Positions 1,187 through 6,136 of a stretch of 64,000 nt of DNA are shown here, one piece after another. This DNA comes from Halichondria panicea. Its lineage: Eukaryota > Porifera > Demospongiae > Suberitida > Halichondriidae. The stretch lies in NCBI RefSeq assembly GCF_963675165.1, contig NC_087387.1, positions 4,118,990 through 4,182,989 on the forward strand, read 5' to 3'. Position numbers and translations under genes: made by a program. Within the stretch, counting starts at the first letter, position 1. Each line of letters opens with the position of its first letter. The notes beneath the pieces are model-generated. The model saw only the letters and a list, made by a program, of their open reading frames with translations. It did no database searches and was not told where the DNA came from.

Positions 1187-1265
1187 GGTTGATGTCTCAT
1201 GTAAGATGGATCCATAAAGAGTGAATAATTACAGAGTCCCACCTACGCAATAATTACATGCAGTG
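1187..1265 (+). repeat. Foldback element, left terminal inverted repeat
   Basis: Non-repetitive 79-bp outer end, the reverse complement of 6058-6136 with a single mismatch (CCTACGC against CCAACGC). Confidence 0.88.
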
Positions 1266-2850
1266 TTCGCAGTGATGCCAGTATTCGCAGTGATCGATGC
1301 CAGTGATACCAGTGATGCCAGTGTTCGCAGTGATGCCAGTGTTCGCAGTGATGCCAGTGTTCACAGTGATCCCAGTGTTCACAGTGACGCCAGTGTTCGC
1401 AGTGATCCCAGTGTTCCCAGTGATACCAGTGTTTACAGTGTTGCCAGTGTTTGTAGTGATGCCAGTGTTCGCAGTGATGCCAGTGTTCGCAGTGATACCA
1501 GTGTTCGCAGTGATGCCAGTGATGGCAGTGTTCACAGTGTTTACAGTGTTGCCAGTGTTCACAGTAATGCCAGTGTTCCCAGTGATACCAGTGTTCGCAG
1601 TGATGCCAGTGTTCGCAGTGATGCCAGTGTTCGCAGTGATGCCAGTGATGCCAGTGATGCCAGTGATTACAGTGTTTCCAGTGATCCCAGTGTTCACAGT
1701 GATCCCAGTGATCCCAGTGATGCCAGTGTTTGCAGTGATGCCAGTGTTCGCAGTGATGCCAGTGTTCGTAGTGATGCCAGTGATGCCAGTGATCCCAGTG
1801 ATTACAGTGTTTCCAGTGATGCCAGTGTTCACAGTGATCCCAGTGATGCCAGTGATACCAGTGCTTACAGTGATGCCAGTGTTTGCAGTGATGCCAGTGT
1901 TCACAGTGATGCCAGTGTTTGCAGTGATGCCAGTGATTACAGTGTTTCCAGTGATGCCAGTGTTCACAGTGTTCCCAGTGATCCCAGTGATGCCAGTGAT
2001 ACCAGTGGTTACAGTGATGCCAGTGTTTGCAGTGATGCCAGTGTTCACAGTGATGCCAGTGTTTGCAGTGATGCCAGTGTTCACAGTGATGCCAGTGTTC
2101 ACAGTGATGCCAGTGTTCCCAGTGATCCTAGTGATAAAAGTGTTTCCAGTGATGCCAGTGTTCGCAGTGATGCCAGTGATGCCAGTGATACCAGTGTTTC
2201 CAGTGATGCCAGTGTTCACAGTGATGCCAGTGTTCACAGTGTTTCCAGTGATGCCGGTGTTTGCAGTGATGACAGTGATACAAGTGTTTACAGTGATGCC
2301 AGTATTTACAGTGATGCCAGTGTTCACAGTGATGCCAGCGTTCCCAGTGATCCCAGTGATGCCAGTATTACCAGTGTTTTCAGTGATGCCAGTGTTCACA
2401 GTGATGCCAGTGTTCCCAGTGATCCCCGTGATCCTAGTGATGCCAGTGTTTCCAGTGATGCCAGTGTTTCCAGTGATGCCAGTGTTCACAGTGATGCCAG
2501 TGATCCCAGTGATCCCAGTGTTTCCAGTGATGCCAGTGTTTCCAGTGATGCCAGTGTTTCCAGTGATGCCAGTGTTTTCAGTGATGCCAGTGTTCACAGT
2601 GATGCCAGTGTTCCCAGTGATCCCAGTGTTTCCAGTGATGCCAGTGTTTCCAGTGATGCCAGTATTTCCAGTGATGCCAGTGTTTCACATGCAGTGAGCT
2701 GGTGTTTGCAGTGCTCACTGTGATGCCAGTGTTCACAGTGATGCCAGTGTTTACATGCAAGTGTTTGCAGTGATTCCAGTGTTGCTTTACAGTGATACCA
2801 TGCAGTGACTGAGTGTTCTGCACAGTGTTTATACATCAGTAATGCCAGGT
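1266..2850 (+). repeat. Left minisatellite arm, 9-bp unit
   Basis: Tandem nonamers of the form NCAGTGNTN (typically CCAGTGATG alternating with CCAGTGTTC or ACAGTGATG), almost perfectly in phase to about 2.69 kb, then degenerate to about 2.85 kb. Because the unit is a multiple of three, several frames stay open for hundreds of codons (ITGNTG-, VFAVMP- and SDASVH-like strings). I treat these as by-products of the repeat, not genes. Confidence 0.9.
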
Positions 2851-4255
2851 TTCTTATACATACTCCTGGTGCCAGCTAAAACACAAACCACTTCAACTCA
2901 AAATTGTGTCATAATTCATCACTATGAGACAAAGTAGACTATAGGGGACTGATGTCATAATTGTTGAATATCTGCCTCCTACAGACTCATCTTAGGTTTT
3001 TGCAAAATTCCTCAGTGCTAGGTTTTTGTGCTCAAGCAGTGTGTTGCATCTATACATACTGTCTGCGTACATTTGATGAGTATATAATAATATAGAGTAC
3101 TTTGTGGGTGTCGCATGGCGTGCATGTGTTTTCAGGGTATATACTTGTGCTGAGCTATGACAATGAATGGTGCTTGCTAATTATACGAGCTCTTTTCTTT
3201 GAGCCAGTAACTCTGACTCGTGAGTGTGTACCATGCATCAGTGGGCCGGAGATTTAGAGTACTTACTATAGAATTGAGAGAGAACGATAATTATATTCAG
3301 TTTTCATAGGGTATTTAAAGTCACAAAACTCAATACCTAGAATATTCTACTTAGTAGAAGCTAGGTTCTACACTGCAAGTCCTGCCTAGGAGTGATGTTT
3401 ATTATAGTACAGTATTTGTTATTGTTTATCACCTCAATGTTATTAAAACTGTGGTTTATTAGTTCATAATATCAACTGCAGGCCTGTCCTCACACAGGGG
3501 CAAACACCAAAACGCTACAAGAATATATTCTGGACAGGCAAACGCTACAAGAATATATATATTCTTGTAGCGTTTTGGTGTTTGCCCCTGCATGTGTGAG
3601 GACAGGCCTGCAGTTGATATTAGGAACTAATAAACCACAGTTTTAATAACATTGAGGTGATAAACAATGCTACAAGAATATACTACATTCGGTGTGCTAT
3701 AGAATAATAGCTTGATCGATTTTCAAAGCCCTTTCAAGATAATCATATTTCGTTTACTTGGATCACGGTACACATACATGCACAAGTCCAATATACATGC
3801 ATGACTAAAAAGCTACTCTCATCATAGAATAGCAATTGCAAGTATACCCTCTATATAATTATATGAAAACACACCTTCATAAGATAGCAATGACCACCCT
3901 GGCAAATTATGCTTTTTATTTTACCTATAATAATAATTGACTATTCTCAAAAAGTCAGCCTGTTTGGTGTACGGTGTCACTACCCATTATTCCAGTTTAA
4001 AGACATCAATTTATTTGTGATAGCACTACCTGAGGTAGCCTCGTTCCCAGCCTCGTTGTCTCTATATATATAGCTTCAACTTCGTTCTATTAAAAAAAAT
4101 CGGCCGAGGCTATTGAGGTAACATTTATACAGAAAGTGCATGAAATATAATCCTATAATATATAGTGCCGAAAGAGAAAATACTCGATCCTCCATGCCTG
4201 CATGCCTAGTGGCTATAGTGCTATATACAGTACAGTAATAGATGTCTATCTATAG
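2851..4255. other. Foldback element spacer, no gene seen
   Basis: Unique AT-rich sequence between the two arms. It contains a 248-bp palindrome (3421-3668) and no open reading frame of note. Confidence 0.6.
3421..3668. repeat. 248-bp palindrome inside the foldback spacer
   Basis: ATTGTTTATCACCTCAATG at the left end is matched inverted by CATTGAGGTGATAAACAAT at the right. The arms run through GCAGGCCTGTCCTCACAC and meet at repeats of CTACAAGAATATA. It is likely a nested MITE or a secondary foldback. No flanking duplication was established. Confidence 0.8.
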
Positions 4256-6057
4256 TGGCATCACGGTAAACACTGCCATCACTGAAAACACTGGTATCAC
4301 ATTGCAGCCTTTTCAGAATTCCCTCTTTTTAATGTAATGCTGACATACAAGTGGAATAGAAGTTAATTGCTAATTTTTTGTGAATGTGTGTAGATCTATA
4401 CATGCATGCAAAGTATTACACACTCAGTACGTATACTGGTGATCGAATGTGTATAGAACACTCCATGGCATCACTGTGAATAGTGAACTGCATAATTATA
4501 TGTAAATACTAAAACACTGGCAATACCCCTGGATATGTTTTGAGCTACAACACTGTAATCCACTGGCATCACTGGTATCACTATGAACACTGGCTTCACT
4601 GTAAACACTGTATCACTGGCATCTCTGGAAACACTGGCATCACTGTGAACACTGGCATCACTGGAAACACTAGCATCACTGGTATCATGCACTGGCATCA
4701 CTGTGAACACTGGCATCACTGGTATCACTGTGAACACTGTGAACACTGGCATCACTGTGAACACTGTGAACACTGGCATCACTGCAAACACTGGCATCAC
4801 TGTGAACACTGGCATCACTGGTATCACTGTGAACACTTTGAACACTGGCATCACTGGAAACACTGGTATCACTGGCATCACTGTGAACACTGGCATCACT
4901 GTAAACACTAGTATCACTGTGAACACTGGTATCACTGGTATCACTGGATCACTGCAAATACTGGCATCACTGTAAACACTGGTATCACTGTGAACACTGG
5001 CATCACTGTAAACACTGGTATCACTGGCATCACTGCGAACACTGGCATCACTGTGAACACTGGAAACACTGGAAACACTGGCATCACTGTGAACACTGGA
5101 AACACAGGCATCACTGTGAACACTGGCATCACTGGAAACACTGGTATCACTGCAAACACTGGCATCACTGGGATCACTGTGGACACTGTGAACACTGGCA
5201 TCACTGGAAACACTGTAATCACTGCAAACACTGGCATCACTGGAAACACTGGAATCACTGTGGACACTGGCATCACTGTGAACACTGGCATCACTGTGAA
5301 CACTGGCATCACTGCGAACACTGGCATCACTGCGAACACTGTGAACACTGTGAACACTGGCATCACTGCGAACACTGGTATCACTGTAAACACTGGCATC
5401 ACTGTGAACACTGGCATCACTGCGAACACTGGTATCACTGGGAACACTGGCATCACTGTGAACACTGGCAACACTGTAAACACTGTGAACACTGCGAACA
5501 CTGGCATCACTGCGAACACTGTAAACACTGTGAACACTGGCATCACTGCGAACACTGGTATCACTGTAAACACTGGCATCACTGTGAACACTGGCATCAC
5601 TGCGAACACTGGTATCACTGGGAACACTGGCATCACTGTGAACACTGGCAACACTGTAAACACTGCCATCACTGCGAACACTGGCATCACTGTGAACACT
5701 GGCATCACTGCGAACACTGGCATCACTGCGAACACTGGTATCACTGTAAACACTGGCATCACTGTGAACACTGGCATCACTGCGAACACTGGGAACACTG
5801 GCAACACTGTGAATCACTGCGAACACTGGCATCACTGCGAACACTGTAAACACTGTGAACACTGGCATCACTGCGAACACTGGTATCACTGTAAACACTG
5901 GCATCACTGTGAACACTGGCATCACTGCGAACACTGGTATCACTGGGAACACTGGCATCACTGTGAACACTGGCAACACTGTAAACACTGTGAACACTGC
6001 CATCACTGTAAACACTGTGAACACTGGCATCACTGCGAACACTGGTATCACTGTAAA
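4256..6057 (-). repeat. Right minisatellite arm, 9-bp unit with 180-bp higher-order repeat
   Basis: Tandem CACTGNNNN nonamers (CACTGGCAT, CACTGTGAA, CACTGCGAA, CACTGGTAT), the inverse of the left arm. Blocks beginning near 5360, 5540 and 5720 repeat at exactly 180 bp (20 nonamers), then a partial block follows at about 5868. Homogenisation by unequal exchange is inferred. Confidence 0.9.
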
Positions 6058-6136
6058 CACTGCATGTAATTATTGCGTTGGTGGGACTCTGTAATTATTC
6101 ACTCTTTATGGATCCATCTTACATGAGACATCAACC
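6058..6136 (-). repeat. Foldback element, right terminal inverted repeat
   Basis: Mirror of 1187-1265, ending CTTACATGAGACATCAACC. It is followed by CTAAAC and then the second copy of CCTCTAAACC. Confidence 0.88.

Follow-up and report, generated by a model that had tools for sequence, protein, structure and literature searches.

FB/NOF of Drosophila belongs to Rehavkus. In Rehavkus-1_TC, the accessible part of the description places a satellite within the inverted termini (PMC10218199), and the available portion of a 2019 survey gives a minisatellite before the 3' end and names no hosts other than arthropods and annelids (PMC6446971). Many foldbacks are known without a transposase, such as Tetris, for which the sections at hand report three structurally complete copies with 8–10 bp duplications (PMC4079207); the parents of foldbacks and the function of their arms are therefore guesswork.

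In the window, i.e. the whole stretch of 64,000 nucleotides that was analysed, positions 1187–6136 are confirmed as one complete foldback-type transposon with exact coordinates. A preliminary description had proposed such an element, and this is borne out by matched ends, inverted arrays, a target-site duplication and other genomic copies. It had also recognised the outer inverted repeat and its one mismatch, but the repeat measures at least 81 bp rather than 79 bp, with the sole mismatch at 1244. The left outer end (1187–1267, plus strand) starts with GGTTGATGTCTCATG, and the right one (6056–6136, minus strand) differs from it at 1 base; the boundary is sharp, with an exact start at GGTTGATGTCTC in 10 of the 15 family ends listed. 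Inside these ends, Tandem Repeats Finder (TRF) placed a 9-bp minisatellite with a CAGTG core at 1261–2755 (plus strand) and the same unit on the minus strand, reading CACTG on the plus strand, at 4570–6062. The opposite-strand arrays are thus real, each about 1.5 kb long instead of 1.6 and 1.8 kb. Their units consist of CAGTG (left) or CACTG (right) plus four bases. The left array contains 145 exact pentamers, of whose 144 intervals 140 measure 9 or 18 bp, with an 18-bp higher period; for the 160 pentamers on the right the figure is 155 of 159. Among 740 pairs listed, the 25 longest show the arms pairing without gaps at 79–83% over 833–867 nt. Long inverted ends made of tandem repeats, together with a target-site duplication and dispersed copies, characterise FB-like foldbacks, and the window copy is a well-preserved representative of this already known kind. 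In all five arms of the family examined, the pentamer columns are 91–99% constant and column 7 of the unit is T in 95–97%, while the commonest letter in columns 6, 8 and 9 reaches just 31–65%. The spacer between the arrays (2756–4569) is about 1.8 kb long, not 1.4 kb, and is not wholly unique: it holds a palindrome (3421–3668, detected as an opposite-strand self match and present also in L002, L004 and L010) and a dispersed repeat (approximately 3898–4240) resembling 42 further genomic matches. It is partly conserved in four other copies, and a tblastn search of it with two MULE transposases gave no significant match.

The element is flanked by an exact 8-bp target-site duplication, CTAAACCC, at 1179–1186 and 6137–6144, adjoining the GGTTGATG and CATCAACC termini. 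A longer flanking repeat of 10 bp, CCTCTAAACC, does exist at 1176 and 6143; it consists of the 8-bp duplication plus a CTCTAAACC tandem, and 8 bp is the length that fits the ends. The 10-bp target duplication was displaced by the 8-bp one, which is preferred because GGTTGATG...CATCAACC termini with an 8-bp duplication recur elsewhere. To read 9 or 10 bp at the window copy, one has to assume unequal extra bases at its two ends; unlike the 8-bp reading, this would require no prior CTCTAAACC tandem in the target. This tandem is absent from both empty paralogous sites, which somewhat weakens the 8-bp reading. Of these sites, the one noted earlier near 28,860 is real and lies at about 28,854 (GCCTCTAAATCATTTCG, 28853–28869), with flanks 82–87% identical in longer pieces; at the additional one, about 28,458 (GCCTCTAAAAGCCATTTCG, 28457–28475), the flank matches are shorter, 55 and 61 bp. 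The idea that the element promoted the duplications in the window is unsupported. Because the paralogous flanks near 28 kb are only 82–87% identical in their longer pieces and free of the insert, whereas the element ends differ at 1 of 81 positions, the surrounding duplication looks older than the insertion.

The flanks also bear on the reading that the palindrome is an assembly artefact with one arm a wrongly joined reverse copy, which we regard as very improbable. Assembly may be hard at family copies, since others lie beside N runs (200 Ns at L002; at L026 a long stretch that may be a gap) and the L008 copy is on a small contig (C23, 36 kb). However, the same 81-bp end closes both arms, with a perfect 8-bp duplication outside, and the window flanks are found joined at the paralogous sites. 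Moreover, the arms are no mirror copies: their 27-mer Jaccard index is only 0.10, within the range between arms of different copies.

The genome search with the outer end showed that other copies exist, so the ground on which the preliminary description would have been refuted, an end with no further copies, does not apply. The 81-bp end has 24 genomic matches, 14 of them covering at least 77 bases; a 23-base end word (up to 3 mismatches) occurs at 24 places and an exact 37-base array word at 30, compared with 0 in the reversed-pattern control. An 8-bp duplication with an intact partner end was found in 5 of 31 rows tested (the window from both ends, L017, L018 and L020), corresponding to three independent insertions, as L017 and L018 occupy one site. 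Three tiny relatives (42, 65 and 69 bp) carry the window termini, each with a perfect 8-bp duplication. The majority of family copies read are one-ended, with no second end and duplication in the stretches read, nor at C11:6688478, which was traced across two joined pieces. L029 does hold a pair of end-like words, separated by 368 bp, but no duplication that matches. At L025–L027 and L029–L036, the inspection was confined to ends, arrays and similarity to two MULE proteins. Only about the first 28–35 bases of the end are present at L013–L016, L019, L021, L023 and L024, and these loci have no significant match to the two MULE proteins. By eye, their open frames resemble host genes.

A transposase-bearing copy, which the preliminary description had proposed to look for, was not found with the same ends: searches with the 81-bp end and then with 23-, 18- and 12-base ends yielded no autonomous copy, and neither the window nor L001–L036 gave a significant match to a MULE DDE transposase. 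The genome contains 186 matches to five transposase families (MULE 31, Merlin 24, P-like 46, hAT 32 and KDZ 53). When these and five further places from a protein search were set against 57 end-like words, none of the 186 matches lay within 28 kb of such a word, the closest pair being 28.4 kb apart. Among twelve transposase-family loci, the best likeness to the end had 3 mismatches in 15; the MULE ends lay beyond the stretches compared, and those of MULE-A and C12 were located afterwards. The parent of the window element must be sought in another family, and its being missing from one assembly does not settle whether the non-autonomous element belongs to the MULEs.

Two larger families in the same genome combine a MULE transposase and a PHD-like finger with 9-bp target duplications and inverted 9- or 10-bp minisatellite arms. 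MULE-A copies (C2:973549-982509 and C8:3134831-3143868) have unique outer ends, 9-bp arms with a GAGTC core and the target duplications GTGTTTTAG and TGTTTCTAG; their 809-aa open frame matches PF10551 at 44.2 bits, over the cut-off. The C12 element (C12:1777432-1789279) has 10-bp arms, the target duplication TTCTTTTTG and a 799-aa open frame matching PF10551 at 37.5 bits, likewise over the cut-off. In the three copies, the minisatellite adjoins both ends and the duplication measures 9 bp throughout. PF00628 alone stays under its cut-off (19.3 and 12.4 versus 24 bits); the eight C4HC3 ligands are nevertheless invariant in all three aligned sequences (MULE-A, C12 and MULE-B), and a profile of the aligned PHD-like parts retrieves PHD structures (best E 5e-4). 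With the MULE domain and PHD finger of their transposases, their 9-bp duplications and their terminal minisatellites, MULE-A and C12 show the anatomy of Rehavkus or foldback MULEs. Two further MULEs do not follow this plan and weigh against a Rehavkus-type mover for the window element. MULE-B has its PHD-like part in an open frame of its own; its sole array is an 83-bp repeat with about 3 copies, and a search for element ends found none. A 958-aa MULE relative at C1:5152631 has neither arms nor a PHD motif within the 8 kb read.

The arms of these families can be compared directly with those of the window element. The window and C12 arms have sixteen 12-mers in common in the same orientation and zero in the opposite one; dinucleotide shuffles gave a mean of 1.0 and a maximum of 4 (20 shuffles), and unit-order shuffles a mean of 8.6, with 16 reached in none of 200. 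Shared 14-mers are weaker evidence (3, equalled in 5 of 200 unit-order shuffles), and MULE-A has no 10-mers in common with the window arms. Read inward from the element end, the cores are CAGTG in the window family, GAGTC in MULE-A and (A/G)GTGT in C12; all three contain (A/G)GT with variable positions between, in units of 9, 9 and 10 bp. The outer ends of the window element show no convincing likeness to those of MULE-A or C12. Its family also differs in duplication length, with 8 bp in all three independent two-ended insertions versus 9 bp in the three MULE-A and C12 copies measured. It thus lacks the 9-bp duplication of Rehavkus, and its 8 bp falls inside the MULE range of 8–11 bp given in the part of the survey available (PMC6446971).

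We propose that the window element is a non-autonomous cut-and-paste foldback, and consider it likely that it is moved by a MULE transposase of the Rehavkus kind. The transposase would recognise the outer end, of which, judging from the relatives of 42 to 69 bp, about 35 bp on one side and some 11–20 bp on the other may suffice. The short-period arms, with their kept core and varying other positions, could represent extra binding sites or tolerated by-products. Unequal exchange within and between copies would alter arm length, and breakage or deletion of the self-complementary body would leave one-ended remnants. A more far-reaching version, in which the arms are transposase-binding arrays whose period selection keeps close to one helical turn, the module spreads between families and a Rehavkus-type transposase captures the window element via arms and tips, seems to us rather improbable.

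Since the duplication is 8 bp and the outer ends are unlike those of MULE-A and C12, the P and hAT alternatives keep some probability. P elements generate 8-bp target duplications, and hAT transposases do so too. Movement by a P-superfamily transposase, in which a P-type element would have acquired long ends with internal repeats, would have a precedent in Galileo, a foldback of that superfamily for which the available text reports solo-end copies (PMC3573991). The P-like domain PF21787 accounts for the 46 P-like matches; five lie in 570-aa frames and have an identical score. The family probably moved recently, since in the one comparison made two copies showed 100% identity across 4,549 bp. 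Against this, the sole P copy tested for inverted repeats (L037) has a 34-bp one starting with ACCATAGATAAAAG, neither L037 nor L038 contains a tandem array, and no P match is close to any window-family end; we therefore judge a P-type origin quite unlikely. Movement by a transposase of the hAT, Merlin or KDZ type, or by one not yet seen, that makes 8-bp duplications is unlikely as well, if a little less so. All three named families are present in the genome and the duplication length is compatible with hAT. However, two loci were read per family, and apart from one 2-bp run none of their arrays exceeds 4.5 copies; the best likeness to the end has 4 mismatches in 15, in loci that may stop short of the element ends. 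The hAT target-site pattern is nTnnnnAn, from which CTAAACCC, CAAAAAGG and TCATTTAG depart.

One genome, that of an animal judging by its genes, holds a non-autonomous family beside transposase-carrying, Rehavkus-like foldbacks of one plan, so that the idea of arms as binding sites and the origin of foldbacks become directly testable. The comparisons that follow draw on the accessible parts of the sources. Galileo of Drosophila is similar in its long internally repeated ends, its two ends changing independently and its abundant solo-end copies (64 of 170), but has a P-superfamily transposase, 7-bp duplications and a repeat of about 210 bp (PMC3573991). Tetris of Drosophila virilis is likewise a non-autonomous foldback with no parent found and with ends in common with a small element, whereas the repeat unit of its arms measures about 220 bp (PMC4079207). 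Tm1 of root-knot nematodes, a Mutator/foldback element, resembles the window element in its composite ends, its repeated motif of about 14 bp and the MITE-like build of some members, and differs in its mostly 9-bp duplications and asymmetric 7-bp termini (PMC3169594). Rehavkus shares inverted termini with tandem arrays with the window element, and the MULE domain, PHD-like finger and 9-bp duplications with MULE-A and C12 (PMC6446971). The window element departs from Rehavkus in the length of its duplication (8 bp) and in lacking a transposase, and the units of 9–10 bp found here contrast with 164 bp in Rehavkus-1_TC (PMC10218199). If the host is neither an arthropod nor an annelid, the Rehavkus-like foldbacks described here lie outside the hosts named in the accessible part of the 2019 survey.

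The window element is a transposon. It occupies window positions 1187-6136 (C11:4120176-4125125), and its inverted ends, 81 bp each, match one another except at a single base. Its two 9-bp arrays, the left at 1261-2755 and the right at 4570-6062, lie on opposite strands, contain 145 and 160 exact CAGTG pentamers when read inward from the ends, and show a strong second period of 18 bp. Among the ungapped arm-to-arm pairs listed, the 25 longest span 833–867 bases at 79–83% pairing. A search of the genome (131.5 Mb, 39 contigs) with the 81-bp end returned 24 matches, including two within the window; 14 of the 24 cover at least 77 bases, and 10 of the 15 ends printed start exactly at GGTTGATGTCTC. 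By eye, the flanks of the printed ends appear unrelated, apart from those of L005 and L006, which share their flanks and represent a single duplicated insertion, and that of the L003 minus copy, which is similar to the flank of L010, a locus with a damaged end. The spacer part at approximately 3898-4240 is a dispersed repeat, hit alone and outside the family by 42 of 56 spacer matches. Further spacer parts recur at C8:3513142, C11:6683442-6684136, C5:1251478-1252324 and C11:5329414-5330173 (79–94% identity), each 1.8 to 5 kb from an end copy. The spacer also contains a palindrome of about 250 bp (3421-3668), present in L002, L004 and L010 as well, which is possibly an older nested hairpin element.

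For target-site duplications, we examined 31 rows representing 30 ends (one in two registers), looking in each for another terminus with the same 8 bases after it. Perfect 8-bp duplications were found in five rows, namely the window element from both of its ends (CTAAACCC), L017 and L018 (both CAAAAAGG, one target) and L020 (TCATTTAG). The elements at the latter three loci measure just 65, 69 and 42 bp, respectively, and consist of two tips and hardly anything more. What the preliminary description had read as a 10-bp flanking duplication is actually made up of the 8-bp duplication and a CTCTAAACC tandem. The empty paralogous site it had placed near 28,860 was recovered, with the flanks of the window copy joined near 28,854, and a second such junction lies near 28,458. 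Both empty sites lack the insert and the CTCTAAACC tandem, so the tandem either pre-existed in the target or arose at insertion. The duplication containing the element site shows 82–87% identity between its longer pieces; since its other side is empty and the element's ends differ at only 1 of 81 positions, it is probably older than the insertion. The window is indeed rich in duplications, as had been noted, but nothing ties the others to the element, and the accompanying idea that it could promote local rearrangement found no support. Direct duplications in series occupy 31,034-52,460 (e.g. 37,856-40,402 versus 48,879-51,435, 97% identity).

Among the copies read, only the window copy combines full size with both tips. 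L004 and L010 partly retain a second array without its tip, L002 enters 200 N, and L011 is short with one damaged tip; L001, L005, L006 and the L003 plus copy are stubs. One-ended copies are thus the majority of the family copies read, and we infer that they are remnants of broken palindromes. Solo ends are likewise frequent in Galileo (64 of 170 copies; PMC3573991). On C26, a 3,000-bp contig, positions 1628-1870 (L028) hold five near-copies, one exact, of a 26-bp palindrome (GGTTGATGTCTCATGAGACATCAACC) that corresponds to a pair of element tips fused together; they form part of a tandem repeat, mostly at 56-bp spacing. A tip-like relic occurs three times with one common flank (C9:5053220, 5061406 and 5065774; L013-L015), and open frames at L013 and L015 resemble multicopper oxidases by eye; given the three copies, common flank and neighbouring frames, the relic seems to have been duplicated along with the frames.

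The arms change independently of each other. For 27-base words, the Jaccard index between the left and right arms of the window copy is 0.10; the respective values of these two arms are 0.175 and 0.216 against the C11:6688478 arm, 0.096 and 0.154 against the C5 arm, and 0.112 and 0.141 against the C8 arm. Comparison with the arms of L007, L009, L010 and the L003 plus copy, which are shorter or less intact, gives 0.026–0.085. The two arms of the window element are therefore no more alike than long arms across copies. Five arms of the family were examined, and in all of them the pentamer columns are conserved at 91–99% and column 7 has T in 95–97% of units, with columns 6, 8 and 9 mixed (commonest letter 31–65%). 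This mixture partly reflects two alternating unit types, the source of the 18-bp period.

A MULE domain search of the genome gave 31 matches and led to foldbacks that carry a transposase (covered by L039, L040, L049-L053, L056 and L057). Two whole copies of one family, MULE-A (C2:973549-982509, 8,961 bp; C8:3134831-3143868, 9,038 bp), each have unique outer ends starting ACAAGTGGCTAAATGC and a 9-bp duplication that is perfect; their arms, on opposite strands, repeat a 9-bp unit whose core is GAGTC, and in each copy an open frame of 809 aa contains the MULE domain. A protein search found additional partial copies on contigs that include C10, C2, C7 and C9. The C12 element (C12:1777432-1789279, 11,848 bp) represents a second family. 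Its ends start ACTAACC(G/A)TTAGAAACAG, its arms repeat a 10-bp unit whose core is (A/G)GTGT, and it has a 9-bp duplication and an open frame of 799 aa containing the MULE domain. A C4HC3 zinc finger lies in the C-terminal part of both proteins and, in the relative MULE-B, in a separate open frame; the three aligned sequences agree at all eight ligands. In a search of solved structures, a profile of these fingers matched PHD fingers (best E 5e-4), although the MULE-A and C12 fingers fall below the cut-off of the Pfam PHD model by itself. PMC6446971 describes Rehavkus by a MULE domain, a PHD finger, a 9-bp duplication and a minisatellite near one end. All four features are matched by MULE-A and the C12 element, with a PHD-like finger, and both are apparently Rehavkus-like MULE foldbacks. 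Relatives do not all conform to this pattern: a 958-aa MULE at C1:5152631 shows no PHD motif and no arms within the 8 kb read. The word sponge is absent from the accessible text of the Rehavkus papers PMC6446971, PMC13359780 and PMC4438587 (Rehavkus is also mentioned in that of PMC10218199), and literature searches combining foldback, sponge and transposon, or Amphimedon and Mutator, returned no title on the subject.

The window element shares its plan with MULE-A and the C12 element. Its arms and the C12 arms also have sixteen 12-base words in common when both are read in one orientation and none in the opposite one, compared with a mean of 1.0 (maximum 4) in 20 dinucleotide shuffles and a mean of 8.6 when the C12 units are permuted, where sixteen or more were reached in 0 of 200 permutations. 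Three 14-base words are common to the two, a number reached by 5 of 200 unit-order shuffles. The window and MULE-A arms have no 10-base words in common, no two of the three families have similar outer ends, the window element's duplication is 8 bp rather than 9 bp, and searching its spacer with two MULE proteins gave no significant match. All 186 transposase matches from five families (MULE, Merlin, P-like, hAT, KDZ) are more than 28 kb away from each of the 57 end-like words. A P-type or hAT-type transposase is a rival candidate for moving the window element. Several P-like 570-aa frames have equal scores (C1:8778506, C1:5068183 and others), as do several hAT-type 728-aa frames (C1:6130375, C1:8506036 and others); both families were probably mobile recently, as the compared pairs are 100% and 99.96% identical, respectively. 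Weighing the common plan and C12 words against the unlike ends, the 8-bp duplication and the lack of a nearby transposase, we somewhat favour movement of the window element in MULE/Rehavkus fashion. By the tests run, it is not classed as a Rehavkus; it probably works like one.
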